Shown here one piece after another: positions 762 to 16,244 of a stretch of 22,799 nucleotides of DNA. Source of the DNA: a virus; the IMG/VR virus record IMGVR_UViG_3300009183_000383, positions 1-22,799 of that record. The stretch is one strand, 5' to 3'. A program made the translations under genes and the position numbers. A model generated the notes under the pieces. The model ran no database searches. It saw only the letters and a list, made by a program, of their open reading frames with translations, and had not been told where the DNA came from. Each line of letters opens with the position of its first letter. The first letter of the stretch is position 1.

Positions 762-785
762 TTTTACCCCCAGAACATATCTTCA

Positions 786-1190: not shown

Positions 1191-1191
1191 T

Positions 1192-3066: not shown

Positions 3067-3079
3067 TTTTTATTCTCCT

Positions 3080-3855: not shown

Positions 3856-3865
3856 ATTACTCCTA

Positions 3866-3902
3866 AAAAGGAAAACTCCTATGCCCATTTTAGCATAGGA
3901 GG
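3866..3902 (-). terminator. terminator between the holin and the tail genes
   Basis: Inverted repeat CTCCTATGC/GCATAGGAG (3876..3884 with 3893..3901), a perfect 9-bp stem with an 8-nt loop. Read leftward it is followed by TTTTCC and further Ts. It would end the transcript coming from the holin and ribonucleotide reductase before the tail operon. Confidence 0.65.
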
Positions 3903-3927
3903 AATCCTAATCTGTTGATAAATTATA

Positions 3928-4155: not shown

Positions 4156-4162
4156 TTGATCA

Positions 4163-4180
4163 TCTCCAATTTTGAGCATT
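4163..4180 (-). promoter_or_regulatory. small hairpin just upstream of the holin ribosome site
   Basis: Perfect inverted repeat TGAGCA-N3-TGCTCA lying a few bases upstream of the GGAG used by the holin. It could modulate holin translation or stabilise the messenger 5' end. This is inference from position only. Confidence 0.35.
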
Positions 4181-4217
4181 GTGCTCAGAATTTTGAGGCC
4201 TAGACCCCAATACTACT

Positions 4218-4247
4218 ATTCTACCATTAAGAGGTAATATCCACAAT
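4218..4247 (-). promoter_or_regulatory. candidate leftward promoter for the holin
   Basis: Read leftward: TTGTGG, 17 bases, then TAGAAT preceded by TG (extended -10, TGGTAGAAT, 4218..4226). The same TGGTAGAAT string occurs upstream of the ribonucleotide reductase gene at 6216..6224. Confidence 0.45.
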
Positions 4248-6161
4248 CTCGCAATTTCCGTCCGATGTGCATGCAAGGGTTTGTGTTCCAGAAGTTCCAT
4301 CTTCTGTTTCATAAAATGATAGGTCTTCCCAGCGAATTTCTTTTGGCATTCTAGAAAGTAAATCTTCATATTCTTCTTTTGATACTTCCTGATATGGTGC
4401 CTGCTTATAAGTGTGGTCTGAATGAGGTAGGAATGAAATACCTGATACCTCATCAAAATACTTATATACCCAAGCGCCAACCTCCATCCATTCATCTTCC
4501 TTTACAGAAACAGTAATTGATGGCTTATGCTCACACCATGCACGCTGATACACCAACCAAATATTTAAATGTTCAATTGCTGTAATATCAGATCTAGTGA
4601 TTGCACCTTCAGGTGCTTTTACTGGAAATGAAAATACATAAGTATCGTTTGGCTTCATTACGTCATCTTCTACAGGAATTCCGACTTCCTTTAAAAATGT
4701 AGAAATTGGATCTCCTTTTGAACCACGAACTGTTCTAATGTAATATGGAGAATGCCAAGCATGCATACCTGAAGAAACTCCTACTAGTTGCGAAACTGTT
4801 CCAGATGGCTTTACACATGTAATCGCTGCAGATTCTGCAATACCAAGCTTACCTGCTTCTTCTTTATTTACTTCTCTAGCTTTGTCTCTCATAGACATTA
4901 AGAACGCCTCTAGTGCAACAATATCTTCTTTGCCAGACATAAATTTATGCCCAAACTGTCCAGTTAAAGATACTCCAAGCAGTCGTTCTTCTTCTGTGTT
5001 GTCTTTCCAAATTTTACGAAGATACTTAAAGTCTGTAAGTGTGGACTGCCATGTTCCTAGGATAGTTGCCAATTCTATTTTTCTTTGAATATCTTTCTTT
5101 GTATCGTTTTCACGTAATACGACTTCTGAAAGATTACAAAACTGATAAGGACGTAGAATAATCTCCGAACACGGGTTTGTTCCATAATGAATTTCTGGGC
5201 TTCTTCTTCCAAATTTTGCCGCTTGAGCTTGCGCTGCTGCAACATTGTAGATACCACGTTCTCCAGACTTTGAATCATATAGAGACTTCCATTCTGCAAT
5301 AAACTGCTCCATCTCTGGCTTGCGTGAATATGCAACAGAGTTATTTGATAATGCTCTTTGTGAATTTGCTTCCCACCAGTTTCCTGATTTTGCCTGAGCC
5401 ATCTCAATATCATTAATATTTGAAAGGGAAATCATTGCTGATCTACGAACTCCGCCAACAACTACAATCTCTCCGATCTTACACATAATATCATGCGCTT
5501 CAATTGGCTTCAGTTGACGACCTGCTGCTGATTTAAACTTTGCAATAGTAAAATCAAAAAGATTGATGAGGGGTTGTGGTCCAGAAGAACGTCCGCCCAT
5601 TGTCTTAAGACGTGCACCTGCTGGACGCAATCTACTTACATCAATTGCTGGAACTTGTCCAGCCCAAAGCATAGCAAGCAACTCACGGTATGCTTTTGCC
5701 CAACCCTGTTTAGAATCTTCAACAACAATTACTGTAGTAGACTTTTCAAATGACTCTGGGACGGCAGGAAGCTTATTAACATACTTATACTCAACAGAGA
5801 ATCCTACACCAGTTCCACACATAAGAATATACATGGTCTCATCAAATGAACGTGGATTATCTACTGGAACAAATGAGCAGTTATATCCTGCTACATGATC
5901 ACGATCTAATGCTGCACCAGCAGTCATAACTGATCTCATTGATGGCATTACATTTCTATCATACACAAACTGCTTTAATTCTTTAACTAACTTACTATCT
6001 GGAGTATAGTCATGATTTTTATCTAGATGATTTAACATAAAGTCAAAATAACGATCTACTGTCTCTCCCCATGTTTCTCTGCGATTATCTTCTTGAATCC
6101 ACCTTGCATAACGAGATAACGCAATAAAGTTTTCATAAGGATTTTCAATAGCTCTTGACAT
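4227..6161 (-). CDS. nrdJ: adenosylcobalamin-dependent (class II) ribonucleoside-triphosphate reductase
   Basis: 644 residues. It reduces ribonucleotides to deoxyribonucleotides using a coenzyme-B12 radical, supplying DNA precursors during infection. Visible catalytic features are C95 in YNCSF (one partner of the active-site disulfide) and N329-P-C331-S-E333 followed by C342 (thiyl-radical cysteine, catalytic Glu and second disulfide cysteine). The C-terminal pair C631/C637 (ACTSDGNC) would relay electrons from thioredoxin. The spacing matches the monomeric Lactobacillus-type enzyme (C119, C408, E410, C419, C731, C736), but the protein is about 95 residues shorter. No separate small subunit is expected or seen. 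The start has an AAGG-type site upstream. It probably forms a leftward unit upstream of the holin. Confidence 0.95.
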   Translation of the reverse strand: MSRAIENPYENFIALSRYARWIQEDNRRETWGETVDRYFDFMLNHLDKNHDYTPDSKLVKELKQFVYDRNVMPSMRSVMTAGAALDRDHVAGYNCSFVPVDNPRSFDETMYILMCGTGVGFSVEYKYVNKLPAVPESFEKSTTVIVVEDSKQGWAKAYRELLAMLWAGQVPAIDVSRLRPAGARLKTMGGRSSGPQPLINLFDFTIAKFKSAAGRQLKPIEAHDIMCKIGEIVVVGGVRRSAMISLSNINDIEMAQAKSGNWWEANSQRALSNNSVAYSRKPEMEQFIAEWKSLYDSKSGERGIYNVAAAQAQAAKFGRRSPEIHYGTNPCSEIILRPYQFCNLSEVVLRENDTKKDIQRKIELATILGTWQSTLTDFKYLRKIWKDNTEEERLLGVSLTGQFGHKFMSGKEDIVALEAFLMSMRDKAREVNKEEAGKLGIAESAAITCVKPSGTVSQLVGVSSGMHAWHSPYYIRTVRGSKGDPISTFLKEVGIPVEDDVMKPNDTYVFSFPVKAPEGAITRSDITAIEHLNIWLVYQRAWCEHKPSITVSVKEDEWMEVGAWVYKYFDEVSGISFLPHSDHTYKQAPYQEVSKEEYEDLLSRMPKEIRWEDLSFYETEDGTSGTQTLACTSDGNCEIVDITS

Positions 6162-6215
6162 TTATAGACACCTTTTCTTCCGCCTAACGGATTGATTAAA
6201 TTTGAATAGGTTCTA

Positions 6216-6224
6216 ATTCTACCA
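6216..6224 (-). promoter_or_regulatory. extended -10 element upstream of nrdJ
   Basis: TGGTAGAAT on the minus strand, identical to the element in front of the holin. No clear -35 hexamer is visible. It lies in the 87-bp gap between the glycosyltransferase and nrdJ. Confidence 0.35.
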
Positions 6225-6248
6225 AAAGAAGTTTAGCGGGGGAAGGGC

Positions 6249-7238
6249 TTAGGAAAACTTTTTAAAGATGTCTTCAAAAGCATTATTGGTCAACTGCAAC
6301 CAATCATAGTCTTCATGAATCTTAGTTGACTGAGCATAATAGTATCCAGAATATGCTTTAAAATTATTTGAAACATCTTTCATAGTCTCAACTAGGTGTT
6401 GATAGATTGGTTCAAAAACTTTTCCAGAATGAGGAAATGGCCAAGGTGAATCAATTAGTTCTGATTTAAGTTTTAATGGACCTAAATAGTTTTTATAATG
6501 TGCCCACGCCTCTGTGCACATTGTTGGCATCCCGCTTGCTAATGCTTGAAGCGGAATAAACCCAAAACCTTCACCATAACTAGGATAAACCAAAACATCG
6601 TGATTATAATATAAATTTAAAAGTTGTTGATCATTATAATCACTAGTAATAATTTTTACATTATCATATATTTCGTTTGGCAATCCAATTATATTTTTAT
6701 CTATAAAGTTATTATACACACGAGTTGTATTATGATTAAATGCTTTTATTGTTAATTGATACTTAGGGTTATTCCCATATAAGAATACAAATGCGTCTAC
6801 TACCATTTGTCCCGCTTTTCTTGGGGCGGGTTCTCCTAAATGAAGAAACTTAATTACACCATCATCTTCACGTTTTTTAGGCTTCCACATATGATCAATT
6901 CCATGTGCAAACACTTTAACATTCTTGTATCCATTATCTTCAAATACATTTGCACACCAATCAGATGTTGTCCACACTTCATCGCAATGCTTTAAATTTT
7001 CGTGCCATTTATCTGGAATTTCTGTAGACTCCCAGGGAGTATAACTAATCTGATACTGATTCCTATGTAGCTTATAAAACTCAGGCTGAGAAAAATTTAA
7101 TTGAACTGGTGCTTTAGCATCTTGGAATGGTGTTTCGTGACCTAAATCATTTAAAGACTTTACAATATTCTTTGCGGCATAACCATATCCATTATTACTT
7201 CTAAGGTTAACAATAGGCGTAGATATAGATATTTTCAT
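6249..7238 (-). CDS. GT-B glycosyltransferase (GT4-like)
   Basis: 329 residues from MKISISTPIV. I prefer this start over the frame's upstream codon at 7280 because the family normally begins with such a first beta strand; the ribosome site is weak. The N-terminal half has SNNGYGYAAKNIVKSLNDLG, typical of the acceptor-binding Rossmann fold. The C-terminal half has FLHLGEPAPRKAGQ (donor-phosphate loop) and YPSYGEGFGFIPLQALASGMP at residues ~218-238. This is the EX7E region with E223 present but the second Glu replaced by Q231. It would transfer a sugar from a nucleotide donor to a glycan, virion protein or modified base. It sits between phage housekeeping genes and the tailoring island, so a role in the same surface or DNA modification pathway is possible. 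Confidence 0.85.
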   Translation of the reverse strand: MKISISTPIVNLRSNNGYGYAAKNIVKSLNDLGHETPFQDAKAPVQLNFSQPEFYKLHRNQYQISYTPWESTEIPDKWHENLKHCDEVWTTSDWCANVFEDNGYKNVKVFAHGIDHMWKPKKREDDGVIKFLHLGEPAPRKAGQMVVDAFVFLYGNNPKYQLTIKAFNHNTTRVYNNFIDKNIIGLPNEIYDNVKIITSDYNDQQLLNLYYNHDVLVYPSYGEGFGFIPLQALASGMPTMCTEAWAHYKNYLGPLKLKSELIDSPWPFPHSGKVFEPIYQHLVETMKDVSNNFKAYSGYYYAQSTKIHEDYDWLQLTNNAFEDIFKKFS

Positions 7239-7259
7239 GGTATTTTCTGGTTGACCGAC

Positions 7260-7289
7260 TTGACAGTAACTTACCGCCAATGTTATGAT
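7260..7289 (+). promoter_or_regulatory. sigma70-type promoter for the lysozyme gene
   Basis: TTGACA (7260..7265), an 18-bp spacer and TATGAT (7284..7289). It is near consensus, unlike the promoters of the right-hand array, and faces the lysozyme gene 34 bases downstream. Confidence 0.7.
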
Positions 7290-7322
7290 TGTAGTTCGTT
7301 ATCTCTAAAGGAGGAAATGCCA

Positions 7323-7868
7323 ATGGAGAATATCAAACAAAAGTTGAGTGATTTTGTTCATAGTTCAACTGTAATAGTAATGATAACATTGTTTCTATTT
7401 ACAAACAATACTGTGATCCCCGCTCAAGCTTTAAAGGTAGAAATACCAAAGACAGAAATACAACTGAAGAAGCAAACGCTGGAAAAGTTCAGCACTACTG
7501 TATACAAGCCTTCACAGGCTCTTACAGACAAAGAGCTAGTTCGACTACTCAAGTCTGTAGGCTTTGAAGGAAACGCCCTTAAAATGGCGTGGGCCGTAGC
7601 CAAAAAGGAATCCAATGGACGACCAATGGCTTATAACGGTAACAGGAAAACTGGAGACAGTTCCTACGGAATTTTTCAGATCAATATGCTAGGTAACCTT
7701 GGCCCTGATCGTAAAGAAAAATTTGACCTGGATTCTTACTACACATTGTTTGATCCAGTAATTAACGCAGAGATAACGTATCATATGACTAATGGCGGTA
7801 AAAATTGGTCAGCCTGGAATGGCTTAACTGCTAAAACAAAGCAGTGGTTAAGTAAATTTCCATACTAG
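7323..7868 (+). CDS. secreted lysozyme/transglycosylase-like endolysin
   Basis: 181 residues from the ATG at 7323, which lies eight bases after a perfect AAAGGAGG; the in-frame ATG at 7317 is too close to it. Residues ~14-36 form a signal peptide (hydrophobic VIVMITLFLF, ending AQA with likely cleavage after A36). The C-terminal domain begins near residue 68. It carries a catalytic-type Glu (E96 in AKKESNG), SYGIFQINM (114-122) and NWSAWNG (162-168), the hallmarks of the lysozyme-like (SLT/GEWL) fold. It would cleave peptidoglycan glycan strands outside the membrane. Its own promoter and strand separate it from the leftward holin. Confidence 0.85.
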   Translation: MENIKQKLSDFVHSSTVIVMITLFLFTNNTVIPAQALKVEIPKTEIQLKKQTLEKFSTTVYKPSQALTDKELVRLLKSVGFEGNALKMAWAVAKKESNGRPMAYNGNRKTGDSSYGIFQINMLGNLGPDRKEKFDLDSYYTLFDPVINAEITYHMTNGGKNWSAWNGLTAKTKQWLSKFPY

Positions 7869-7881
7869 CAGAAGGAAATAG

Positions 7882-8106
7882 ATGAAGATACAATATGTAT
7901 CTAAATATATAAATCTAGCAGATGAAGGTCTTGCTCCTAAATTGGAATGCCCAATGGATCAAGGCCTTCTTCTGTGCAACCAGGATCATGAAGAAAATAT
8001 ATTCTTATACTGCCTTTCTTGTGAATACAAGAAAACAATTGGACTAGACCTTTACGATAAGATGAAGGCGGAGGTAATTAAAAATGACAGAACAACAATC
8101 AAGTAA
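7882..8106 (+). CDS. small zinc-ribbon-like phage protein
   Basis: 74 residues, preceded by AGAAGGAAATAG. Cysteines C23, C32, C44 and C47 (CPMDQGLLLC ... YCLSC) form a C-x8-C-x11-C-x2-C pattern suggestive of a zinc ribbon. It is located 13 bp after the lysozyme stop and overlaps the next gene by 23 bp, so it is co-transcribed with both. I do not recognise a function. Confidence 0.7.
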   Translation: MKIQYVSKYINLADEGLAPKLECPMDQGLLLCNQDHEENIFLYCLSCEYKKTIGLDLYDKMKAEVIKNDRTTIK

Positions 8107-8281
8107 CCTTGAAGATAATCTACCAATGGTCAATTATATTATGCTTCACCGCATATATGACCTATTGACAATAATTGCAAATAAACTGGAGCCAGAAAAG
8201 ACATCTAAAATGGTTGAATATCATGATGCTGGATATCTATTAGGACCCTCACCATCATATACCCCAGAAGATAATGAATAA
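8084..8281 (+). CDS. small hypothetical protein
   Basis: 65 residues. A strong GGAGG (about 8070) sits upstream within the preceding gene. The protein has a short amphipathic helix (YIMLHRIYDLLTIIANKL) and a proline/aspartate-rich tail (LGPSPSYTPEDNE). It overlaps the start of the sulfotransferase by 8 bp. The function is unknown, but the overlaps on both sides and the good ribosome site argue that it is expressed. Confidence 0.7.
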   Translation: MTEQQSSNLEDNLPMVNYIMLHRIYDLLTIIANKLEPEKTSKMVEYHDAGYLLGPSPSYTPEDNE

Positions 8282-8975
8282 ATATATTTTGATTGGAACA
8301 CACCACAAAAGTGGAACTGTGTGGATGGAAAACATGTTTTCAATATTTGCAAAATTTAATGGGTATGATTTTAAAAATATACACATAGAAAAAATAAAAG
8401 ATTTGAATAAGCCTCATATTTTTTTTTCATATAATTCAGATTTTGATTATTTAAAAAATAGCTTTGATATATCTGAAAAAGCAATTCAAATAGTAAGAGA
8501 TCCTAGAGATTTAGCAATATCTGGAGTTAAATATCATTCTAAAAAAAATCTTAATGAAGAATGGCTATATTTAGAAAAAAATGGGATGCCTTCATATTAT
8601 GAAAATTTAAAATCAAAGGAAAGTTTTGAAGAAAAGGTTTTATTTGAATCAGAAAACATTACAATGTATACTGTTAAAGAAATGATTAAATGCAAAAATA
8701 AAACAAATATATTAACAATAAAATATGAAGATCTATTTAATGATTTTGAAAAATTTGATACATTAAAAAAAATAGCAAAATACTTTAACATGAGTATTAA
8801 AGAGTTTAATTTATTAAAAAAATCATACATTGAAACACATATATTTTATGTTGGTAAGAACGATCATGTTTCTAATGGTCAATCTGAGCAATATAAATCC
8901 TTGAACAAGGATACTCAAAAAAAATTAATAGATTTTTTTAAAAAAGAAATTGCTGCCTTGGAATATAAAGAGTAA
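8274..8975 (+). CDS. PAPS-dependent sulfotransferase
   Basis: 233 residues. It should move a sulfuryl group from 3'-phosphoadenosine 5'-phosphosulfate to a hydroxyl or amine acceptor. The 5'-phosphosulfate loop is H11-KSGT-V-W17, with K12 in the catalytic lysine position. The 3'-phosphate-binding motif is IVRDPRDLAISGVKYH (73-88, with R75 and S83). The length is at the short end for the sulfotransferase fold. Its start overlaps the previous gene and its stop abuts the next ATG (TAAATG), so it is co-translated with the carbamoyltransferase. Codon use is extremely AT-rich (many ATA, AAA, TTT), unlike the lysozyme upstream, suggesting recent acquisition. The acceptor is unknown. Confidence 0.85.
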   Translation: MNKYILIGTHHKSGTVWMENMFSIFAKFNGYDFKNIHIEKIKDLNKPHIFFSYNSDFDYLKNSFDISEKAIQIVRDPRDLAISGVKYHSKKNLNEEWLYLEKNGMPSYYENLKSKESFEEKVLFESENITMYTVKEMIKCKNKTNILTIKYEDLFNDFEKFDTLKKIAKYFNMSIKEFNLLKKSYIETHIFYVGKNDHVSNGQSEQYKSLNKDTQKKLIDFFKKEIAALEYKE

Positions 8976-10619
8976 ATGACAAAAAACATAAACATTGTTG
9001 GAATAAGTGTGGCCCATGATAGCTCTGCTGCTTTATATACAAATGGCAAACTTTCTTTATTCTTTAAAGAAGAAAGACTAACTAGAAAAAAAAGAGATAG
9101 GCCACCATTCTTATCTATACTTGAAATATCTAAAAACTTTAAAGAACCAATTGATGCAATTATTATTTCTTCACCCACTAATGGAGATCCTGGTAATTCT
9201 TTGATTGCCGACTATGCCTCTAGAATCTTAAAATGTAATAATATTATAGATCTTTCTGATAAACATCATCTTTGCCATGCATCTTTAGCTTTTTATAATA
9301 GTGGGTTTGATAAGGCAAATGTGATAGTTATAGATAGAAATGGATCTATTGTTGGTGGTGTTGCCAGAGAAGCTGAAACAATATACTCTGTATCGTATCC
9401 CAATAGCTTTACAGAAATTTATAAAAATTATTGGAATTTAACGGAAGATAAGGATTATTTAAATAAAGTTTTTTCTAATGTCCGTAACGAAAAACCAAAC
9501 TGCGAAATAAATTATTTAAGTTCTTTTAGCATAACTAAAGTATATGAAACTGCAACAACTTTAATTGGACAGCATATGCTTGAAAATGGAAAGACAATGG
9601 GTCTTTCTGCCTATGGTAAAACGGTGTCTGGGCCAAATATGTTTCTGGAAAATGGGCTGGCACACGATTTATTTTTTTCACATACAGATAGCTGGGAAGC
9701 AATAAACAAGAATCACTTAGATAAAATAAATAATAATATTACAGAATCAAATCATGAATTTTACTCTAACTATGCATATACTGTTCAAAAATATACTGAG
9801 GATCAAGTTGCCTGGTTAGTTGAAAAATCAATAAAGAAAACTGGTATAAAAAAAATATGTATAACTGGTGGATATGCACTAAATGTTGTATGTAATGGAT
9901 TTTTATTAAATAAATTTCCAGATGTTGAGTTTTATTTTGAACCTATTGCAGATGATAACGGAAACAGTATTGGGGCGGCAATGCTACATTACAGAATGCA
10001 AACAAACGACATATCAATAAATAAAATAGAGACAACCTTTACTCATGGAATAAACCACGATCTATCTAAAATAGAGGGGATAGACTGCTCTGTTTCTGAT
10101 ATTGCAAATCTAATTGTCAATAATAAAAGTGTTGCTATATACAATGGGTTAGCTGAGTCTGGCCCACGTGCACTAGGAAATAGATCAATTTTATATAACG
10201 CATTAAACAAAAATGCAAAAACAAATGTAAACATAATAAAAAAGAGGGAATGGTATAGACCATTTGCAGCGGCAGTTTTACAGGAAGACGCAAAGATTTA
10301 TTTCAAAATGCCTATAGAGTCAAGCCCTTACATGACGGCATCATTTAATATAAATTATGAGCACAAAGAACTATTAACGGGTGTCATGCACGTAGATGGC
10401 TCATGTAGAATACAGACTCTTGATAGGTCTAGTGAACCAATCAGATTACTGCTTGAAGAAATAAAGAATATATCTGGTCATGGAATTGTATTAAATACAA
10501 GCTTTAATTTAGCTGGAGAGCCTTTAGTTGAAACTCCAGAAGAAGCTATATCTGTTTTAAAATCTTCAGACCTAGACTACATATGGTTTCCAGAAATACA
10601 AAAACTAGTTTCTAAATAA
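8976..10619 (+). CDS. O-carbamoyltransferase of the NodU/CmcH/TobZ family
   Basis: 547 residues, close to family length. The family makes carbamoyl-adenylate from carbamoyl phosphate and ATP, then transfers the carbamoyl group to a hydroxyl. Visible signatures are VAHDSSAAL (12-20), H97-x3-H101 with D120 (spacing as in the TobZ metal site H114/H118/D137), ITGGYALNVVCNG, ADDNGNSIGAA, AESGPRALGNRSI and REWYRPFAAAVL. The C-terminal NTSFNLAGEPLVETPEEA is also present. Both the Kae1-like and YrdC-like halves are intact. It follows the sulfotransferase with no gap. Candidate acceptors are a surface glycan, a small molecule or 5-hydroxymethylcytosine in phage DNA (a known phage carbamoyltransferase activity). 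The sequence alone does not decide. It ends convergently, overlapping the membrane-protein gene by 8 bp. Confidence 0.92.
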   Translation: MTKNINIVGISVAHDSSAALYTNGKLSLFFKEERLTRKKRDRPPFLSILEISKNFKEPIDAIIISSPTNGDPGNSLIADYASRILKCNNIIDLSDKHHLCHASLAFYNSGFDKANVIVIDRNGSIVGGVAREAETIYSVSYPNSFTEIYKNYWNLTEDKDYLNKVFSNVRNEKPNCEINYLSSFSITKVYETATTLIGQHMLENGKTMGLSAYGKTVSGPNMFLENGLAHDLFFSHTDSWEAINKNHLDKINNNITESNHEFYSNYAYTVQKYTEDQVAWLVEKSIKKTGIKKICITGGYALNVVCNGFLLNKFPDVEFYFEPIADDNGNSIGAAMLHYRMQTNDISINKIETTFTHGINHDLSKIEGIDCSVSDIANLIVNNKSVAIYNGLAESGPRALGNRSILYNALNKNAKTNVNIIKKREWYRPFAAAVLQEDAKIYFKMPIESSPYMTASFNINYEHKELLTGVMHVDGSCRIQTLDRSSEPIRLLLEEIKNISGHGIVLNTSFNLAGEPLVETPEEAISVLKSSDLDYIWFPEIQKLVSK

Positions 10620-10893
10620 AATGTTTTAATATTGCAGTAGTTGCTAATAGACACCATACGATATTAAAATAAATAATTGTTGGCAGAGTTTTTATCGTCG
10701 ATGTAACTATTAAAGCAAGACTGGAAATTAATGCAAATATAAAAAGCCACCACCATTGTTTACCGAATAGCAGGCCTGGAATAATAATAGCTAATTTAGT
10801 TGAAAATGCCCAAAACTCAATTATGTTAACCTTAGTCCAGTATGACTTTGTTATTAAATTTTTGCTGACATGTTTTATTTCATTAAGATTCAT
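10612..10893 (-). CDS. small three-helix membrane protein
   Basis: 93 residues with three hydrophobic segments: about 27-43 (WAFSTKLAIIIPGLLF), 45-62 (QWWWLFIFALISSLALIV) and 68-90 (TLPTIIYFNIVWCLLATTA). Its start overlaps the 3' end of the halogenase gene by 11 bp, so it belongs to the same leftward unit. No catalytic motif is visible. It could anchor or export the product of the tailoring enzymes; this rests on context only. Confidence 0.7.
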   Translation of the reverse strand: MNLNEIKHVSKNLITKSYWTKVNIIEFWAFSTKLAIIIPGLLFGKQWWWLFIFALISSLALIVTSTIKTLPTIIYFNIVWCLLATTAILKHFI

Positions 10894-12376
10894 TATAATT
10901 TTTAATTCTTTCTAAAACAACATTATGAGAATCATAAGATTTTACTGCATCCATATATTCTTTATGCTTTAAAAAGAATAAATCAGATTTTTCAAGAAAT
11001 AATTTTTGTATAACTTCACTATTTTTAAAAACATTCAAATCCAATATATTATTTCCATACGCTATATCAAGAAAGTCTTCCAGTGAAAATATGGCACCCA
11101 CTTCATGTATATCTTTTTTTTGCGGAGTGTTTTGTTTCCATTTTAAAATCAATAATTTAATTTCTTCTGGATAGCTTTCTATATTTTCAAATTTTTTCCA
11201 AAACTCTGTGTCTTTTCTATTAGTTATATAATGATAAAAAATAAAATTAAAAACTGAATTATTTATTTTTTTTATCAAAGCATTATACTCTTCTTTTTTA
11301 TTTTCAGAAAATATAGAATCAAAAGTATTTTCACTATAAAGTGTTTTTAGTGAATGAACTGATACTGCAATTGATGTTGCTTCAAGTGGCTCAATAAACC
11401 CAGAGGATAGACCTATTGCTATACAATTTGAAACCCATGTGTCCTCGTAGCATCCAGACTTAAACTTAAAAGATCCTTTGTCTTTTCTTGGCCATTCTGG
11501 TTCAAATCCTAAGTGCTCTATGATCTCATTTATGACATCATCTTCAGAAACTAAAGAAGAGTCGAAAACATAACCGCAACCATATCTATTTTGTAAAGGT
11601 ATCTTCCACATCCATCCATACTTCATTGCTATTGCCTCTGTATAGATTGGAACAGTTTCATCTTGATCTATAAAAAATGGGATAGCAGAGTCTACTGGTA
11701 AAAATTCTGAATAGTCTATCCACTTAGATTTAAAATGTTTTCCAATTATTAGCCTAGAAAATCCAGTGCAGTCGAATACAAAGTCACAGTCTATATGTCC
11801 ACCGTCTGAAAAAATAATTTTGTCTATATTACCATTTAATTGACTAAATGTTTCTACCTCACCATTAATTAAATTAATTCCTCTATCTATAGCCTTTTGC
11901 TTTAAATAACTTGCGACCTTTATGGCATCGAAATGCAATGCGACGTTCATGCTTTTATTTTCTTCTAATGCCATATGATCATGATGAAAATATTTTTTAT
12001 CAATTCCTGAATAAATTGCTAAATCATACCAAGGGTTTCCTTCGTAACCTATTTCATTTAGAAATGAATTTAATGATACGCTTTCATGACTAGCATAAAA
12101 CGGATGATAATAATAATCCCCATCATTGCTCCAGTTTGTAAATTTAATTCCGCATTTTACTGTTCCGCCAGTTTTCTTTAATAAATCCATTACATCTATT
12201 TCAATTAAGGACAATAGGTTTATAATGCTTGGAGTAGTTCCTTCTCCAGCACCCAATATTCCTATTTTATCTGACTCTATTACAGTTATATTACAATCTG
12301 GAAGTGCATACTTTGAAGTTAATGCTGTTAGCCAGCCAGCTGTTCCACCACCTACAACTACTATATTTTTATTCAT
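10883..12376 (-). CDS. FAD-dependent halogenase (tryptophan-halogenase family)
   Basis: 497 residues from the ATG at 12376; the frame also opens at a TTG nine bases upstream, which lacks a ribosome site. The flavin-binding GGGTAGW is at 9-15. The signature WxWxIP is W255-M-W257-K-I259-P260. K78, in GTVKCGIKFTNW, aligns with the catalytic lysine (K79 of PrnA). GLSSGFIEPLEATSI (322-336) is the conserved segment carrying the active-site glutamate. The enzyme would use reduced flavin and oxygen to make HOCl, HOBr or HOI, passed via the lysine to an electron-rich substrate. A separate flavin reductase, possibly host-encoded, is needed; none is visible here. All key motifs are intact, so it is probably active. 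Viral homologues of this family are known (a cyanophage halogenase). It shares the AT-rich composition of the island. Confidence 0.92.
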   Translation of the reverse strand: MNKNIVVVGGGTAGWLTALTSKYALPDCNITVIESDKIGILGAGEGTTPSIINLLSLIEIDVMDLLKKTGGTVKCGIKFTNWSNDGDYYYHPFYASHESVSLNSFLNEIGYEGNPWYDLAIYSGIDKKYFHHDHMALEENKSMNVALHFDAIKVASYLKQKAIDRGINLINGEVETFSQLNGNIDKIIFSDGGHIDCDFVFDCTGFSRLIIGKHFKSKWIDYSEFLPVDSAIPFFIDQDETVPIYTEAIAMKYGWMWKIPLQNRYGCGYVFDSSLVSEDDVINEIIEHLGFEPEWPRKDKGSFKFKSGCYEDTWVSNCIAIGLSSGFIEPLEATSIAVSVHSLKTLYSENTFDSIFSENKKEEYNALIKKINNSVFNFIFYHYITNRKDTEFWKKFENIESYPEEIKLLILKWKQNTPQKKDIHEVGAIFSLEDFLDIAYGNNILDLNVFKNSEVIQKLFLEKSDLFFLKHKEYMDAVKSYDSHNVVLERIKNYNES

Positions 12377-12396
12377 ATTTCCCAATCTATATATTT

Positions 12397-12402
12397 CAAG
12401 TA
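12397..12402 (-). promoter_or_regulatory. extended -10 for the halogenase operon
   Basis: Minus strand TGCTATACT: TATACT with TGn directly upstream, about 20 bp before the halogenase ATG. The -35 region (CAACTG at 17 bp) is poor, as expected for an extended -10 promoter. Confidence 0.5.
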
Positions 12403-12424
12403 TAGCATTTTTTATTTAAAACAG

Positions 12425-12453
12425 TTGACTTAAAACAAATAGTATTTTATACT
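12425..12453 (+). promoter_or_regulatory. sigma70-type promoter for a small RNA
   Basis: TTGACT (12425..12430), exactly 17 bp, TATACT (12448..12453). No coding frame follows on this strand; a run of three hairpins does. Confidence 0.6.
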
Positions 12454-12459
12454 AAAGAA

Positions 12460-12555
12460 GTATCGGTTGTAGCATCCCACTATGCTCCCGATGCTTAGTT
12501 CGTAAGAACTAGCAAATCCCAATCGGATCCGCCTCTGATTGGGATTTGTCCTTTA
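12460..12555 (+). ncRNA. candidate structured small RNA
   Basis: The predicted transcript from the promoter at 12425 folds into three consecutive helices. (i) ATCGG/CCGAT stacked on AGCAT/ATGCT with a CCCACT loop (12462..12493). (ii) TAGTTC-GTAA-GAACTA (12496..12511), closed by a GNRA-type tetraloop. (iii) A perfect 12-bp stem CAAATCCCAATC/GATTGGGATTTG (12513..12524 with 12537..12548) with a 12-nt CCGCCTCT-containing loop, followed by TCCTTTATT. The GNRA loop exists only on the plus strand, which favours this orientation. No ORF is present. Alternative: the last hairpin simply ends the leftward tRNA transcript, but there is no T-run on that side. Confidence 0.5.
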
Positions 12556-12562
12556 TTAAAGG

Positions 12563-12635
12563 TGCCCCTGACAAGATTCGAACTTGTGCTTTACAGATTT
12601 TAAGTCTGCCTCCTCTACCGCTGGGATACAAGGGC
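12563..12635 (-). tRNA. tRNA with UAA anticodon (Leu codon UUA), short variable loop
   Basis: Acceptor stem GCCCTTG/CAGGGGC is fully paired, with discriminator A. The anticodon stem is GCAGA/TCTGT with loop CTTAAAA (anticodon TAA), and the T arm is ACAAG-TTCGAAT-CTTGT. The variable loop is only five bases (AAAGC), whereas bacterial leucine tRNAs normally have a long variable arm. The D stem is weak with one extra loop base. CCA is not encoded. Confidence 0.8.
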
Positions 12636-12637
12636 AG

Positions 12638-12709
12638 TAGCTGTAATTGGAATCGAACCAATACACTCCTTCTTATGAGGAAGGCGCACAACCATTATGC
12701 TATACAGCT
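12638..12709 (-). tRNA. tRNA with CAU anticodon (Met or lysidine-type Ile)
   Basis: Acceptor stem AGCTGTA/TACAGCT is a perfect 7 bp. The anticodon stem is CCTTC/GAAGG with loop CTCATAA (anticodon CAT), and the T arm is ATTGG-TTCGATT-CCAAT. A fully paired first base pair argues against an initiator tRNA. Elongator Met and Ile2 cannot be separated by eye. CCA is not encoded. It lies 2 bp from the UAA tRNA and was probably co-transcribed with it. Confidence 0.88.
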
Positions 12710-12720
12710 TTGGAGCGGCG

Positions 12721-12793
12721 CTGGACCACCAGGGATCGAACCTGGGACCTAGAAGTTAACAGCTTCCCGCTCTGCCGTCTGAGCTATGGTCCA
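12721..12793 (-). tRNA. tRNA-Asn(GUU)
   Basis: Acceptor stem TGGACCA/TGGTCCA, D arm GCTC/GAGC, anticodon stem GGAAG/CTTCT with loop CTGTTAA (anticodon GTT). The T arm is CCAGG-TTCGATC-CCTGG, with discriminator G as usual for Asn. CCA is not encoded. It is the first gene of a three-tRNA leftward cluster. Confidence 0.92.
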
Positions 12794-12871
12794 TTATGTG
12801 TAAATAATACTAAATAAAGTGCGATTTAAAAAGTGCGCCCGAAAAAAGTGTCGGCGGAAGAGAGAACCCTT

Positions 12872-13186
12872 TTAATTAAATGAATCTCCGCATGCACATG
12901 TTCCATTTGCGGCGGGATTATCAATGGTAAATCCTTGCTTATCTATCTTATCAACATAATCCATAGTAGCATCTGTAAGATATGGAAAAGACATACTGTC
13001 TAAATGTAGGTTAAATGAGTCAAATGGAATTATATGATCTGAATCAAGAGGCGTATGGTCAAAATAGATTTGATATCTTAAACCTGAACAACCTCCTGGA
13101 GATACAGATAGTCTTAGAAATAGGTCATCTTGCTCTATTGCCAAGAGTTGTTCTACTTTGTCTATAGCTTTGGAAGTTAATATCAT
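12872..13186 (-). CDS. A-type iron-sulfur cluster carrier (IscA/ErpA/HesB family)
   Basis: 104 residues from MILTSKAIDK. I prefer the ATG at 13186 over a TTG nine bases upstream. The three conserved ligands are present: C33 in SPGGCSG and C97-A-C99 in GTCACGDSF. The length is standard for the family. It would carry an Fe-S cluster to apoproteins and may boost a host or phage Fe-S enzyme during infection; such genes are known from cyanophages and other aquatic phages. It lies 13 bp downstream of a tiny zinc-finger-like gene, probably in one operon. No FeS-dependent phage enzyme is visible in this window. Confidence 0.92.
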   Translation of the reverse strand: MILTSKAIDKVEQLLAIEQDDLFLRLSVSPGGCSGLRYQIYFDHTPLDSDHIIPFDSFNLHLDSMSFPYLTDATMDYVDKIDKQGFTIDNPAANGTCACGDSFN

Positions 13187-13199
13187 TTTGACCAATCTT

Positions 13200-13334
13200 T
13201 CATTTTATGGCTCCCGCCCGATTTATAGTTAATTCTAGTCTTTGATAGATATGATAAATGCAATATGAGTGATAGGTGCCATCTACATGTAATACATTTA
13301 CATAATGGCTATTGTCACAAAATTCGCATCTCAT
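13200..13334 (-). CDS. tiny zinc-finger-like protein (44 aa), probably leaderless
   Basis: ATG at 13332..13334, stop at 13200..13202. The sequence starts MRCEFCDNSHYVNVLHVDGT, then YHSYCIYHIY. C3, C6, C25 and H28 make a C-x2-C...C-x2-H pattern like other small proteins in this window. A TATAAT on the minus strand ends seven bases before the ATG (TATAATTAGATACATG), so the transcript would begin at or next to the start codon, with no ribosome site. It lies just upstream of the Fe-S carrier gene. Support is the Cys/His pattern, promoter and spacing; its small size keeps this uncertain. Confidence 0.55.
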   Translation of the reverse strand: MRCEFCDNSHYVNVLHVDGTYHSYCIYHIYQRLELTINRAGAIK

Positions 13335-13600
13335 GTATCTAATTATACTCTTATATTATTCTAGTTGACTGCTTTTTAAATTCTATTAAATGTTAATAAA
13401 ATTTTATTTTTATATCCTATATATCTATATAATATTTAAATTGATACTTAGGTATTTAGATTTTTAGGAAAGCCCCCCTACCCCCCATAAAAAGAAAAAT
13501 CTTTTTAGGAGATAGAGAAGCAAGACACTTAGTATATTTGAGTAATTAGTGTAAGCCCCCACAAACCAGTCTTTAGTATAACATTGTTAATTTTGACAAG
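13335..13600. other. AT-rich gene-less stretch with G/C tracts
   Basis: No convincing ORF on either strand. It contains a very AT-rich core (about 13380..13460), a CCCCCCTACCCCCC tract (13475..13488), a weak AT hairpin TAAAAAGA/TCTTTTTA (about 13488..13507) and a leftward promoter-like pair at its right edge. It lies where transcription switches from leftward to rightward, but I see no iterons or DnaA boxes inside it. Confidence 0.5.
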
Positions 13601-13604
13601 TCAA
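13575..13604 (-). promoter_or_regulatory. leftward promoter-like element
   Basis: Minus strand TTGACT (13599..13604), 18-bp spacer, TATACT (13575..13580). TTGACTTGTCAA is itself a palindrome around the -35. It could feed the tiny 13334 gene and the Fe-S carrier, or a short RNA. Confidence 0.45.
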
Positions 13605-13705
13605 GACTTTTCACAAACTTTGTTGTGATTTAGTAGAGTAATAAATGCAAAGCTAGATCTTACTTGTATTTCCGCCCCGCATTTTTCGCAGATAACAATT
13701 CTCAT
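13601..13705 (-). CDS. tiny zinc-finger-like protein (34 aa)
   Basis: MRIVICEKCGAEIQVRSS, ending LLNHNKVCEKS; ATG at 13703..13705, stop at 13601..13603. C6, C9, H27 and C31 form a C-x2-C...H-x3-C finger. CATAAT ends six bases upstream of the ATG, suggesting a leaderless start, with TTGACT further upstream. Very short; support is the ligand pattern plus promoter placement. Confidence 0.5.
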   Translation of the reverse strand: MRIVICEKCGAEIQVRSSFAFITLLNHNKVCEKS

Positions 13706-13798
13706 ATGCAGATTATGATAGCATGATTTCTAGTCAACTACAATATCAGATTTCATAAAATGTTAATAGGGATTTATTTTGTATGATCCAGTGTTTTA

Positions 13799-13894
13799 TA
13801 ATGTCCGAATTGTCCAGATAGAGCGACCATACGACTAGTCATTGTGACCCTTATCACATACCTTTTTTTAGAAATGTCTTTAATGTCCGAATTG
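13799..13894. repeat. 14-bp direct repeat flanking the divergent control region
   Basis: TAATGTCCGAATTG occurs at 13799..13812 and 13881..13894. Each copy is followed by CGACTAG[TA]CATT, so a larger operator/promoter unit seems duplicated. The second copy leads directly into the promoter at 13899. Confidence 0.6.
13843..13858. promoter_or_regulatory. CRP/GlxR-like palindrome TGTGA-N6-TCACA
   Basis: An exact match to the TGTGA-N6-TCACA consensus of CRP-family regulators, about 80 bp upstream of the -10 of the first gene in the rightward array. It also overlaps a degenerate promoter-like copy (TTGTGA, 11 bp, TACCTT). Confidence 0.5.
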
Positions 13895-13898
13895 CGAC

Positions 13899-13928
13899 TA
13901 GACATTTGTCAGACCCCTCATGTAGTCT
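13899..13928 (+). promoter_or_regulatory. array promoter, TGTCAG type (for 13975)
   Basis: TAGACA (13899..13904), 18 bp, TAGTCT (13923..13928). TTGTCAG begins at 13906, 11 bp before the -10. GACATTTGTC (13901..13910) is an inverted repeat overlapping the -35. Confidence 0.55.
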
Positions 13929-13939
13929 TAAGACATAAG

Positions 13940-13958
13940 GTTAATCAAGGTGATTAAC
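13940..13958 (+). promoter_or_regulatory. leader inverted repeat
   Basis: GTTAATC-N5-GATTAAC, a perfect 7-bp inverted repeat between the -10 and the ribosome site of the 13975 gene. It is either an operator or a leader hairpin. Confidence 0.45.
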
Positions 13959-13974
13959 AGAAAGGAGTTACATA

Positions 13975-14121
13975 ATGAGTAACTCAATGTTCGAAAGAGC
14001 GAGAGGGTTCGCTACTGTATCCGATTACCCTAAAGGTCTAATGAACCTATGTCCATGCGGTCAGGTTGTCTTAGCACCTGCCCTATACCATGAAAGGTGT
14101 GAGGCAACTCACACCGCATAG
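13975..14121 (+). CDS. small zinc-finger-like protein (48 aa)
   Basis: MSNSMFERARGFATVSDYPK, then GLMNLCPCGQVV and LYHERCEATHTA. C27, C29, H39 and C42 form a compact C-x-C...H-x2-C cluster. AAAGGAG stands eight bases upstream. It is the first gene of the rightward array, with its own promoter. Function unknown; small DNA- or RNA-binding zinc proteins of this kind are common in phage early regions. Confidence 0.7.
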   Translation: MSNSMFERARGFATVSDYPKGLMNLCPCGQVVLAPALYHERCEATHTA

Positions 14122-14150
14122 GCTATACGCTACGGCGTGTCGTCTTGCTA

Positions 14151-14173
14151 ATGTCTTACCTATCCGCTACAAT
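14151..14173 (+). promoter_or_regulatory. array promoter (for 14208)
   Basis: ATGTCT (14151..14156), 11 bp, TACAAT (14168..14173), a slightly degenerate TGTCAG box. TTGCTA lies 17 bp upstream of the -10. The leader has the usual ACCAACTAACGAAAG wording. Confidence 0.55.
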
Positions 14174-14207
14174 TCCAACTATACCAACTAACGAAAGAGA
14201 TAACGAA

Positions 14208-14360
14208 ATGACTATAACATACTCACTATGGGACGGCGCACAACTACTAGGCGCAGGCTTCACCGCTAATAGCGCAGACGAGATGAATAAGGTAGTAGCA
14301 GACCTACAAAAGGTTTCTAAAAATGTTGTTGCACACATGAGAAAGGTAGAACAGAACTAA
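14208..14360 (+). CDS. small hypothetical protein (50 aa)
   Basis: MTITYSLWDGAQLLGAGFTA, then NSADEMNKVVADLQKVSKNV. I chose the ATG at 14208 because AACGAAAGAG precedes it; the longer frame would start inside the promoter. It has a beta hairpin-like start, then an amphipathic helix. It is first gene of a five-gene operon in which each stop overlaps or touches the next start. Confidence 0.7.
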   Translation: MTITYSLWDGAQLLGAGFTANSADEMNKVVADLQKVSKNVVAHMRKVEQN

Positions 14361-14539
14361 TGACTAAATGGGACACAATACAGGCAGACGTAGCAGACGC
14401 ATACATTCACCTTGATGAGGTAGAAGATGTAGAGCAAGAAGATGAGCAAGATTTCTTCGGTTTCTCTAAGGCTATCCAACTAGACCACTTAACAGATGAA
14501 GAACTAGACGAGGTCTTTAACATGTTCGGAGATAAGTAA
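14360..14539 (+). CDS. small acidic hypothetical protein (59 aa)
   Basis: MTKWDTIQADVADAYIHLDE, then a strongly acidic stretch (VEDVEQEDEQDFF) and LTDEELDEVFNMFGDK. Starts on the TAATG overlap with the previous gene. The acidic character would suit a nucleic-acid mimic or inhibitor, but there is no direct evidence. Confidence 0.65.
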   Translation: MTKWDTIQADVADAYIHLDEVEDVEQEDEQDFFGFSKAIQLDHLTDEELDEVFNMFGDK

Positions 14540-14680
14540 ATGACTATTGAACTAAATGACTACGGCTTCATGTTTGACATGGGAGACTTTATCTATGTAT
14601 CCCTATCATGGGCGTTTATTATCTTGACCGCCCTATCTATAACCGCCTATAAGATTTATAAGAGAAAGAAGAATAAGTAA
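14540..14680 (+). CDS. small single-helix membrane protein (46 aa)
   Basis: Starts MTIELNDYGFMFDMGDF. It has one hydrophobic segment at residues ~18-36 (IYVSLSWAFIILTALSITA) and a basic tail (KIYKRKKNK), so the N-terminus would lie outside and the C-terminus inside. Starts directly after the stop of the acidic gene. Function unknown. Confidence 0.65.
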   Translation: MTIELNDYGFMFDMGDFIYVSLSWAFIILTALSITAYKIYKRKKNK

Positions 14681-14790
14681 TGACTACTAATCGCCTACTT
14701 ACTACCGCCGTCCAACTACTACTAGCGGGAGTAACTATTCCGCTACTAATCGCCGTAATAAAAGACCTAAAAGAGAATGGACTAAACTAA
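14680..14790 (+). CDS. tiny membrane peptide (36 aa)
   Basis: MTTNRLLTTAVQLLLAGVTI, then PLLIAVIKDLKENGLN: essentially one hydrophobic helix with a charged tail. Starts on a TAATG overlap and ends on another, so translation is coupled on both sides. Function unknown; a second small membrane peptide follows a similar plan at 16810. Confidence 0.6.
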   Translation: MTTNRLLTTAVQLLLAGVTIPLLIAVIKDLKENGLN

Positions 14791-14981
14791 TGAAATCAGA
14801 ATTAGAAAGAGATTTAGAAATCAAGGAAAGTTTTATTGATTTACTAAATGACGTTTATCCTACTGTAAAAATCGGCTACTCAACTTTTACACCCGCCGAA
14901 ATACTAGAGTGCTGTGATCCTATTGCGTTTAGTATTGGACTTATAGAGCACGAGGATTATCTAGCAGAATTAGAGGAGTAG
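14790..14981 (+). CDS. small hypothetical protein (63 aa)
   Basis: MKSELERDLEIKESFIDLLN, then DVYPTVKIGYSTFTPAEILE and CCDPIAFSIGLIEHEDYLAE. The wording resembles small actinophage proteins with a 'DPIAF..G..dh.D' tail. Last gene of the coupled operon begun at 14208, starting on a TAATG overlap. Function not recognised. Confidence 0.7.
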   Translation: MKSELERDLEIKESFIDLLNDVYPTVKIGYSTFTPAEILECCDPIAFSIGLIEHEDYLAELEE

Positions 14982-14986
14982 GTAAC

Positions 14987-14995
14987 GGCGTGTCG
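14987..14995 (+). repeat. GGCGTGTCG motif, one of four exact copies
   Basis: Exact copies at 14134..14142, 14987..14995 and 16391..16399, and on the minus strand at 17002..17010; a near copy (GGCGTGTTG) is at 16434. All lie in intergenic gaps of the small-gene array. Confidence 0.5.
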
Positions 14996-15016
14996 ACTTG
15001 ACAATGTAGGCAGCTG

Positions 15017-15036
15017 GCCCCCAAAGATGGGGGGGC
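15017..15036 (+). terminator. GC hairpin ending the 14208 operon
   Basis: GCCCCC-N8-GGGGGC. There is no T-run after it; the DnaA-like box follows immediately. It is probably a terminator or part of the repeated intergenic element. Confidence 0.4.
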
Positions 15037-15066
15037 TGTGGATAACTTAAGAGAGCCTGTGGAAAA
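15037..15066 (-). promoter_or_regulatory. pair of DnaA-box-like 9-mers, copy 1
   Basis: TGTGGATAA (15037..15045, minus-strand TTATCCACA, a perfect DnaA box) and TGTGGAAAA (15058..15066, minus-strand TTTTCCACA, fitting TTWTNCACA). Both point the same way, 21 bp apart. Confidence 0.5.
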
Positions 15067-15078
15067 CCCCTGAAATTT

Positions 15079-15094
15079 TGTGAGATTTATCACA
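15079..15094. promoter_or_regulatory. CRP/GlxR-like palindrome
   Basis: TGTGA-GATTTA-TCACA, an exact half-site match, lying 64 bp upstream of the -10 of the 15196 gene. Confidence 0.55.
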
Positions 15095-15118
15095 CGGCTT
15101 GAGCGTCTCAGTATTTGG

Positions 15119-15136
15119 AATTACTGGCCAGTAATT
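15119..15136. promoter_or_regulatory. 18-bp perfect palindrome (operator candidate)
   Basis: AATTACTGGCCAGTAATT reads the same on both strands and abuts the -35 region of the promoter at 15142. It is seen once in the window. Confidence 0.5.
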
Positions 15137-15141
15137 AGTTT

Positions 15142-15164
15142 ATGTCAGTGGGTTCGTGTATAAT
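15142..15164 (+). promoter_or_regulatory. array promoter (for 15196)
   Basis: ATGTCAG box at 15142, 11 bp after ATGTCA, then TATAAT (15159..15164). The leader ends in AACCAAACGAAAGG. Confidence 0.7.
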
Positions 15165-15195
15165 TCCATACATAACCAAACGAAAGGCGGACACC

Positions 15196-15390
15196 ATGTC
15201 AGCAAATGTCTATACAATCGAAAGCCTACTTATAGGAAAACTCTATCGCTCAAAGACTTTAACGGGCGAGATTATCTCAGCAGAAAAACACCCTGCACCA
15301 GTATGGTATGAAAACGCAGAGGCGTATTTAGTCGAGGTGCGTAATCATAACGGGGGCTATGCTCACCGAACCATTGCGGTCACTAACTAA
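15196..15390 (+). CDS. small hypothetical protein (64 aa)
   Basis: MSANVYTIESLLIGKLYRSK, then TLTGEIISAEKHP and AYLVEVRNHNGGYAHRTIAV. Start chosen at the ATG after AACGAAAGGCGGACACC; the frame upstream runs back through the promoter. The layout (IGK....LTGEII.A..HP....LVEV..) resembles the 49-aa protein at 18208, suggesting distant paralogues with a small beta-barrel fold. Single-gene transcription unit with the richest upstream control region in the array. Confidence 0.7.
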   Translation: MSANVYTIESLLIGKLYRSKTLTGEIISAEKHPAPVWYENAEAYLVEVRNHNGGYAHRTIAVTN

Positions 15391-15391
15391 T

Positions 15392-15414
15392 TTGTCAGTG
15401 GCACCTGATACAAT
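15392..15414 (+). promoter_or_regulatory. array promoter (for 15445)
   Basis: TTGTCAG box (15392), 11 bp, TACAAT (15409..15414) with TGA before it (extended -10). Starts two bases after the stop of the preceding gene. Confidence 0.7.
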
Positions 15415-15444
15415 TCCATTAACAAACTAACGAAAGGTCAAAAA

Positions 15445-15537
15445 ATGACACTTGATGAATACAAAGAAATGGTAACTGCTCAGCGTGAAGCGAGCAAAGC
15501 CGAAGCCCTAGCAATTCTAACACGAAAGGAAAACTAA
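15445..15537 (+). CDS. tiny helical peptide (30 aa)
   Basis: MTLDEYKEMVTAQREASKAE, then ALAILTRKEN. AACGAAAGG lies seven bases upstream. Charged, probably a single helix. It may also act as a leader cistron whose 3' end supplies the ribosome site (CGAAAGGA) for the next gene. Function unknown. Confidence 0.6.
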   Translation: MTLDEYKEMVTAQREASKAEALAILTRKEN

Positions 15538-15539
15538 TA

Positions 15540-15683
15540 ATGGGAAACATCCTAGATGAATTAACCAACATCATTGCAATAGATTGTTCATGGTGCGGTG
15601 GCGCAGGATTTATATTTTTTGGAAACGAAAATGATTTTGATGTCGAGCCTTGCGATTGCGTAACAGATGAGGAGTTAATTTAA
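15540..15683 (+). CDS. small zinc-finger-like protein (47 aa)
   Basis: MGNILDELTNIIAIDCSWCG, then GAGFIFFGNENDFDVEPCDC. C16, C19, C38 and C40 form a C-x2-C...C-x-C ligand set around a short beta hairpin. The MGN(I/L)...E(L) start resembles the 16500 gene, hinting at duplication. A ribosome site lies in the tail of the preceding cistron and its end overlaps the next gene (TAATG). Confidence 0.7.
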   Translation: MGNILDELTNIIAIDCSWCGGAGFIFFGNENDFDVEPCDCVTDEELI

Positions 15684-15889
15684 TGTATAAACTAACTTGC
15701 GCCTATGACGGCAACGCACCGCATTGGACAGTGGAATACGAAAACGAATACGGGGCTTGGGAAAACTTCTTCCTATTCACCGATTGGGGATTTGCTGACG
15801 AATACTCAACAGTTAATCTTTATACACCAACAGGCAAATGCCACACAAAAGTTTTTTATCGTGCAGGACGAAAGGTCGTAATTAAATAA
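15683..15889 (+). CDS. small hypothetical protein, Trp/Tyr-rich (68 aa)
   Basis: MYKLTCAYDGNAPHWTVEYE, then NEYGAWENFFLFTDWGFADE and YRAGRKVVIK. Mostly beta by appearance, rich in aromatic residues. Coupled by TAATG overlaps at both ends to its neighbours. I do not recognise the family. Confidence 0.7.
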   Translation: MYKLTCAYDGNAPHWTVEYENEYGAWENFFLFTDWGFADEYSTVNLYTPTGKCHTKVFYRAGRKVVIK

Positions 15890-16050
15890 TGAATATCTAT
15901 GAGTTTAACGCTTTCATAAATGTAGAGGCTGAGTCCTATGATGAGGCTATTGATGTATTCCAATTCCAATTAAAATACGGAATAAATAAAGACAATGTTT
16001 ATGTCGCAGACATAAACCAATTAACTAATAACGAAAGCGTTGAGGTATAA
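15889..16050 (+). CDS. small hypothetical protein (53 aa)
   Basis: MNIYEFNAFINVEAESYDEA, then IDVFQFQLKYGINKDNVYVA. The pattern 'f.v.v.AesydeA...' is typical of small phage proteins of unknown role. Coupled to the previous gene by a one-base overlap. Confidence 0.68.
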   Translation: MNIYEFNAFINVEAESYDEAIDVFQFQLKYGINKDNVYVADINQLTNNESVEV

Positions 16051-16052
16051 AG

Positions 16053-16244
16053 ATGATGACACGCAAGGACTATGTCGCAACGGCAGAAATTCTAAAGTAT
16101 GCCAGCGATAAAACTCATCCCGCTTTATTCTCTAAAATGGTAAATGATTTCGCTGAAATGTTTGCGAAAGATAATGACCGATTTGATGTAAGGCGATTTC
16201 ATGAAGCCAGTGGATACAATGTTCCAAACTTCACTTCGAGATAA
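16053..16244 (+). CDS. conserved phage hypothetical protein (62-63 aa)
   Basis: MTRKDYVATAEILKYASDKT, then FSKMVNDFAEMFAKDNDRFD and RRFHEASGY. The MTRKDY...A..L and NDRFD..RF..A.GY signatures belong to a short protein found in very many phages, without known function. Tandem ATG codons at 16053 and 16056 both suit the GAGG upstream. Confidence 0.78.
   Translation: MMTRKDYVATAEILKYASDKTHPALFSKMVNDFAEMFAKDNDRFDVRRFHEASGYNVPNFTSR

Follow-up and report, generated by a model that had tools for sequence, protein, structure and literature searches.

A flavin-dependent halogenase gene and a small gene encoding a membrane protein, here called MEM, form a two-gene unit that is conserved across divergent phages and across divergent clades of halogenase. 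The unit lies in the window analysed here, the whole 22.8 kb stretch of a single virus record, where it adjoins genes for a sulfotransferase and a carbamoyltransferase in a low-GC island (Table 1). An earlier note on this DNA had described a phage-borne island of plausible, intact tailoring enzymes, a description that is supported, but it overlooked both the 93-aa membrane protein as the constant partner of the halogenase and the nature of the locus, which is an exchangeable cargo site.

Table 1. Features of the window in and around the island
Feature	Position	Strand	Basis or remark
Left backbone border (SLT lysozyme-like protein, w7882 of 74 aa, w8084 of 65 aa)	7251..8281	+	NrdJ-anchored set
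Sulfotransferase, 233 aa, GC 22%	8274..8975	+	PF00685, PAPS-binding motifs intact
NodU/TobZ-type O-carbamoyltransferase, 547 aa	8976..10619	+	PF16861, phrog_1601, TobZ alignment
MEM, three-TM membrane protein, 93 aa	10612..10893	-	Start overlaps halogenase end; no family
Flavin-dependent (tryptophan) halogenase, predicted	10886..12376	-	PF04820, phrog_2928, catalytic Lys and Glu
tRNA-Leu, tRNA-Met, tRNA-Asn, right side of site	12561..12793	-	ARAGORN and Rfam
Right backbone border, small conserved ORFs w14145, w14360, w14790, w15142, w15683, w16053	14145..16244	+	Lineage set

All four open reading frames were found where they had been reported, in the order sulfotransferase, carbamoyltransferase, MEM and halogenase. 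The layout had been worded as two convergent pairs, which does not hold as such: the genes of each pair lie on the same strand, and the two pairs converge on one another, with the stops of the carbamoyltransferase and MEM overlapping by 8 bp. The start of MEM overlaps the end of the halogenase by ~11 bp. The reported AT-richness was borne out, the GC content being 0.292 for the island (8274-12385) versus 0.367 to its left and 0.392 to its right. A chimeric assembly of the island is unlikely, because two further IMG/VR contigs share the left junction at 100% identity, one of them (3300010885_031940) matching window 1-14473 and with it the whole island, the other (3300027759_000719) matching window 1-8671. 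A search around the island returned no convincing repeats or att-like ends, and promoter-like sites were no more frequent than in shuffled sequences. Beyond the island a gene for an ErpA/IscA-type Fe-S carrier (12872-13195) adjoins the three tRNAs and has a counterpart in 0/80 related loci. It is followed by ~950 bp (13196-14144) that contain neither a convincing ORF nor an Rfam family, with a GC content of ~29% over much of the stretch and a 31-nt direct repeat at 13380 and 13750.

The motifs of all three enzymes are intact, as had been claimed. The halogenase begins with an ATG at 12376, with an in-frame TTG at 12385, and its product matches the Pfam Trp_halogenase profile (PF04820) at 1.4e-103 and at near full length (profile positions 1-445 of 458), together with phrog_2928 (7e-110), PrnA (3e-61) and VirX1 (6e-49). 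With GGGTAGW (GxGxxG), WMWKIP (WxWxIP), the Lys in GIKFTNW and the Glu in FIEPLEATS, profile and motifs predict a flavin-dependent tryptophan halogenase. The sulfotransferase matches Sulfotransfer_1 (PF00685) at 3.5e-12 and carries a 5'-PSB-like motif in HKSGTVWMENMF and a 3'-PB-like motif in RDPRDLAISGVKYHS; the profile, HKSGTVW (5'-PSB) and RDPRDLAIS (3'-PB) together mark it as PAPS-dependent. No PHROG, no relative in phage GenBank and no PDB sequence match was found for it, and a single-sequence scan of IMG/VR returned nothing beyond this same phage, as represented by the two identical contigs. The carbamoyltransferase has both domains of the NodU/TobZ type, Carbam_trans_C (PF16861) at 2.7e-50 and Carbam_trans_N at 1.1e-23, and the metal and active-site His and Asp motifs (HDS, HHLCHA and GGYALN) align to those of TobZ, which it matches at 4e-39; the match to phrog_1601 is at 3e-118. 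Its nearest relative in an isolate is that of cyanophage S-SCSM2R (40%), its relatives in IMG/VR reach 53%, and a single-sequence scan of IMG/VR returned this phage only.

MEM had no match in Pfam, PHROG, NCBIfam or PDB sequences. A first AF2 model was weak (pLDDT 70.7) and a second better (84.9), the latter predicting three long helices and a short N-terminal one, and Trp, Lys, Asn, Glu and Pro residues are invariant in the family. A fold search of PDB and BFVD gave no significant match, the best being SemiSWEET at a Foldseek E of 2.3, so that likeness to a SemiSWEET/PQ-loop 3-TM transporter or to PnuC was dropped. Scanning with MEM itself gave relatives in at least 575 viral loci. A search of GenBank phages returned none at the sensitivity applied, and only two bacterial contigs encode MEM. 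One of these, from a gammaproteobacterial MAG (L187:9705-10049), has a MEM homologue (48%) beside a type I PKS, a PIG-L deacetylase and glycosyltransferases, with a SyrP/TauD-like oxygenase on the other side, and MEM may serve natural-product clusters as well. A halogenase partner in the two bacterial MAGs was sought and rejected, the halogenase-related genes there being distant flavoproteins only.

In related halogenase loci a MEM homologue was present in 73/80 (the halogenases dereplicating to 34 clusters at 90%), in nearly all cases immediately downstream of the halogenase and mostly with an overlap. Approached from MEM, the halogenase was adjacent in 37/71 scored loci and within 4 kb in 54/71. 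MEM is not exclusive to halogenation, because 17/71 loci had no halogenase within 4 kb, although some of these are cut by contig ends; in L393 it lies beside a helicase/primase. The pairing extends over a tree of 79 halogenases, in which MEM adjacency changed state at least 12 times and in which MEM-adjacent clades include a VirX1-related, a PrnA-related and a third very divergent one. MEM shares 63-81% identity between phages whose partner halogenases share 27-48%. MEM is a conserved partner that is used with many halogenases, and it can also be carried alone. In five loci without a nearby halogenase (L393, L394, L399, L425, L426) MEM lies between a primase-like gene and a gene of 220 aa, the product of which is ssDNA-binding-like in L393.

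Scanning with the ribonucleotide reductase (NrdJ) gave 80 loci of the same lineage at 87-100% identity, or 81 with the window. The cargo site is the stretch between the genes for SLT (in 78/81 loci), w7882 (62/81) and w8084 (51/81) and the region of tRNAs and small ORFs, each of the latter ORFs being common to 2-13 loci; tRNAs mark the site in the relatives too. Among the loci that reach far enough, five (L163, L169, L172, L173, L183) carry a halogenase and MEM, four (L115, L118, L130, L148) a pair of neighbouring genes, one cytochrome P450-like and the other sulfotransferase-like, and others 2OG-Fe oxygenases, DUF6065-like or methyltransferase-like genes, or just tRNAs and small genes. The site is hypervariable in this lineage of freshwater actinophages. 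Halogenase-MEM pairs probably entered it at least twice, because the five sister halogenases fall in a different clade from that of the window. The predicted hosts are Actinobacteria, because a 113-kb member of the lineage (L167) encodes WhiB, and most likely freshwater ones. The earlier note had also mentioned a glycosyltransferase gene 1 kb away; the gene is real, but a link to the island was rejected, since it is a backbone gene that is present in 52/81 loci and absent from the five halogenase-bearing sister phages.

The association of the three chemistries was assessed in a controlled set from another group of actinophages, fetched via an unrelated backbone gene, in which halogenase-bearing and halogenase-free contigs of 11 kb or more were compared. 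The contigs of this set are related, so that P values are descriptive, and the association counts given here are not independent of phylogeny. ST22, an HMM-defined family of sulfotransferases, was found in 14/17 halogenase contigs versus 0/27 halogenase-free ones, and any sulfotransferase in 16/17 versus 2/27. An Asp/Asn hydroxylase and MEM likewise go with the halogenase, whereas the carbamoyltransferase is negatively associated with it (1/17 versus 16/27). In the lineage of the window a motif-based count gave a sulfotransferase in 4/6 loci with a halogenase versus 6/38 without (p = 0.018). Halogenase-bearing actinophages usually carry a sulfotransferase too. Among loci anchored on the carbamoyltransferase a halogenase lay within 5 kb in 11/80 and a sulfotransferase in 1/80. 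The suspicion that such genes might be scattered and unlinked in related phages is thus answered differently for each partner: linkage holds between halogenase and MEM and between halogenase and sulfotransferase, but the carbamoyltransferase, which lies near a halogenase in some loci, is partly unlinked. Our reading is that the sulfotransferase is a frequent ally of the halogenase and the carbamoyltransferase a separate acquisition.

The full combination nevertheless recurs, all three chemistries and MEM being found within 6 kb in L009, L021 and L036 and, with a weaker case for the sulfotransferase (motifs and a custom HMM, no Pfam match), in L383. It was probably assembled more than once, because the carbamoyltransferases of these phages are less than 30% identical to that of the window and the sulfotransferase of the window has no detectable relative in them. 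APS kinase was considered as a source of PAPS for the sulfotransferase and rejected; PF01583 occurs in 38/50 halogenase contigs, but also in 13/27 of the halogenase-free contigs in the controlled set, and none was found within the window. In a number of halogenase loci (48/80; L005-L077, e.g. L051:5885-6643) a fusion of APS kinase with a nucleotidyltransferase-like domain lies just upstream of the halogenase together with a DUF2061-like small protein.

Each of these enzymes has known counterparts. Flavin-dependent halogenases have been described in phages, including cyanophages and actinophage DSL-LC01 (PMC10611076, PMC10452541), and both a halogenase and a carbamoyltransferase are listed for marine cyanomyoviruses (PMC3037559). 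The halogenase VirX1 (cyanophage Syn10, PDB 6qgm) and those of the cyanophage PrnA-like type, of Pelagibacter phage HTVC008M and of DSL-LC01 resemble that of the window in their Trp_halogenase family, catalytic motifs and aquatic phage origin at ~27-41% identity, but that of the window is paired with MEM and lies beside a sulfotransferase and a carbamoyltransferase. Similarly, the Nol-like carbamoyltransferases of cyanophages (phrog_1601) and TobZ/NodU share both Carbam_trans domains and the aligned catalytic motifs, but the cyanophage genes viewed sit in glycan or heptose clusters, whereas that of the window adjoins the sulfotransferase and the halogenase-MEM pair. Sulfate and carbamoyl groups are placed on one bacterial scaffold by NodH and NodU, which act on Nod factors. 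The window differs from these and from natural-product clusters in having no Nod backbone genes, in its phage context and in the added halogenase-MEM pair. The site itself resembles the moron or AMG sites of other phages, where a variable low-GC cassette lies between conserved phage genes near tRNAs, but what it carries in this lineage is weighted towards tailoring enzymes of the oxidative and group-transfer kinds. A literature search found halogenase, sulfotransferase, carbamoyltransferase and phage nowhere together, in agreement with the statement that no described phage system combines the three. Within the literature searched, neither the MEM family nor its recurrent pairing with halogenases of phages appears to have been described, and the same applies to the cargo site. 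Halogenases are common, unexplained auxiliary genes in aquatic phages; MEM and the recurrent sulfotransferase offer a handle on their role, pointing to membrane- or surface-linked substrates. The two-gene units can be expressed and tested, and the members of the lineage, with different cassettes swapped into a single site, form a ready-made natural series.

The reading that we favour, tentatively and at somewhat less than an even chance, is that the island is a swappable accessory cassette, inserted between late genes on the lysin side and the region of tRNAs and small ORFs, in which the halogenase-MEM pair, the sulfotransferase and the carbamoyltransferase are separately acquired decorators of exposed targets. 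MEM might, as a guess, anchor the halogenase, a soluble FAD enzyme, at the membrane, or move the substrate or product of that enzyme across. The target of the pair would then be a molecule exposed at the membrane or surface of the infected cell, or on the virion, with halogen being added to an electron-rich aromatic group. The sulfotransferase would draw on host PAPS, and the carbamoyltransferase would use carbamoyl phosphate and ATP on a sugar hydroxyl, the two having been acquired separately for the same kind of exposed targets with no single fixed pathway. The likely benefit would be changed adsorption, with receptors hidden from competing phages, or an altered chemistry of virions or debris. 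Exposed surface molecules are favoured because the halogenase has a membrane partner and, in other phages, tail-fibre or lysis-gene neighbours (L078, L354, L383; DSL-LC01), and we infer surface or virion targeting solely from this gene company. A glycan target is likewise favoured for the carbamoyltransferase, since its relative in S-SCSM2R is surrounded by sugar-nucleotide epimerases, GT10 and UGDH and that in P-SSM2 adjoins heptose genes and tail fibres. The wider proposition, that phages of aquatic habitats widely encode a membrane-located halogenase-MEM complex, which recurs in company with phage sulfotransferases and carbamoyltransferases and would represent a new class of phage chemistry remodelling the surface of the infected cell or virion, is on balance doubtful.

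The main rival, a serious possibility though not a probable one, is that the site gathers selfish or individually useful genes acting on separate substrates and that their adjacency is accidental. Such unrelated passengers would fit the free change of content between relatives, the negative association of carbamoyltransferase with halogenase, the single sulfotransferase near carbamoyltransferase-anchored loci and the confinement of the window sulfotransferase to this phage in phage GenBank and IMG/VR, but not the association of the halogenase with MEM and with sulfotransferases, nor the recurrence of the whole combination with divergent genes. It is unlikely that the targets are virion proteins, with Tyr or Trp being halogenated and glycosylated or hydroxylated tail-fibre residues being sulfated or carbamoylated; the tail-fibre and lysis genes that often adjoin the pair, the collagen-like fibre genes and GT beside the halogenase of DSL-LC01 and companion genes for amino-acid-side-chain chemistries (Asp_Arg_Hydrox, 2OG-FeII_Oxy_3) point that way, but a membrane partner is unexpected for soluble fibres and the island showed no gene for a peptide precursor. 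Conversion of a host metabolite into a diffusible signal, toxin or antibiotic-like product exported by MEM is quite unlikely: the enzymes are of kinds typical of natural-product tailoring, and bacterial MEM adjoins the PKS-containing cluster with its SyrP/TauD-like oxygenase, but MEM matches no recognised transporter and neither the window nor the phage neighbourhoods examined contain a core biosynthetic gene. The earlier note had also put forward the phage's own DNA as a target. In a reading of this kind the carbamoyltransferase would make 5-carbamoyloxymethylcytosine-type bases that the other enzymes would extend. To our knowledge neither halogenation nor sulfation of DNA is known. A carbamoyltransferase of the same family, found in the MetaGPA study, does act on 5hmC of modified phage DNA, but DNA-acting carbamoyltransferases occur with thymidylate synthase homologues (PMC8670742), and this reading is very improbable, since the thymidylate synthase/hydroxymethylase family that marks them is present in 0/39 related records (all fragments, up to 120 kb).

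A further protein of 240-255 aa and unknown family, with a motif around KKVVLKRF, recurs beside the halogenase or MEM (L007:3357-4112, L012:439-1206, L354:5283-6008, L409:3016-3765), and in L354 it is adjoined by a DUF6065 protein.
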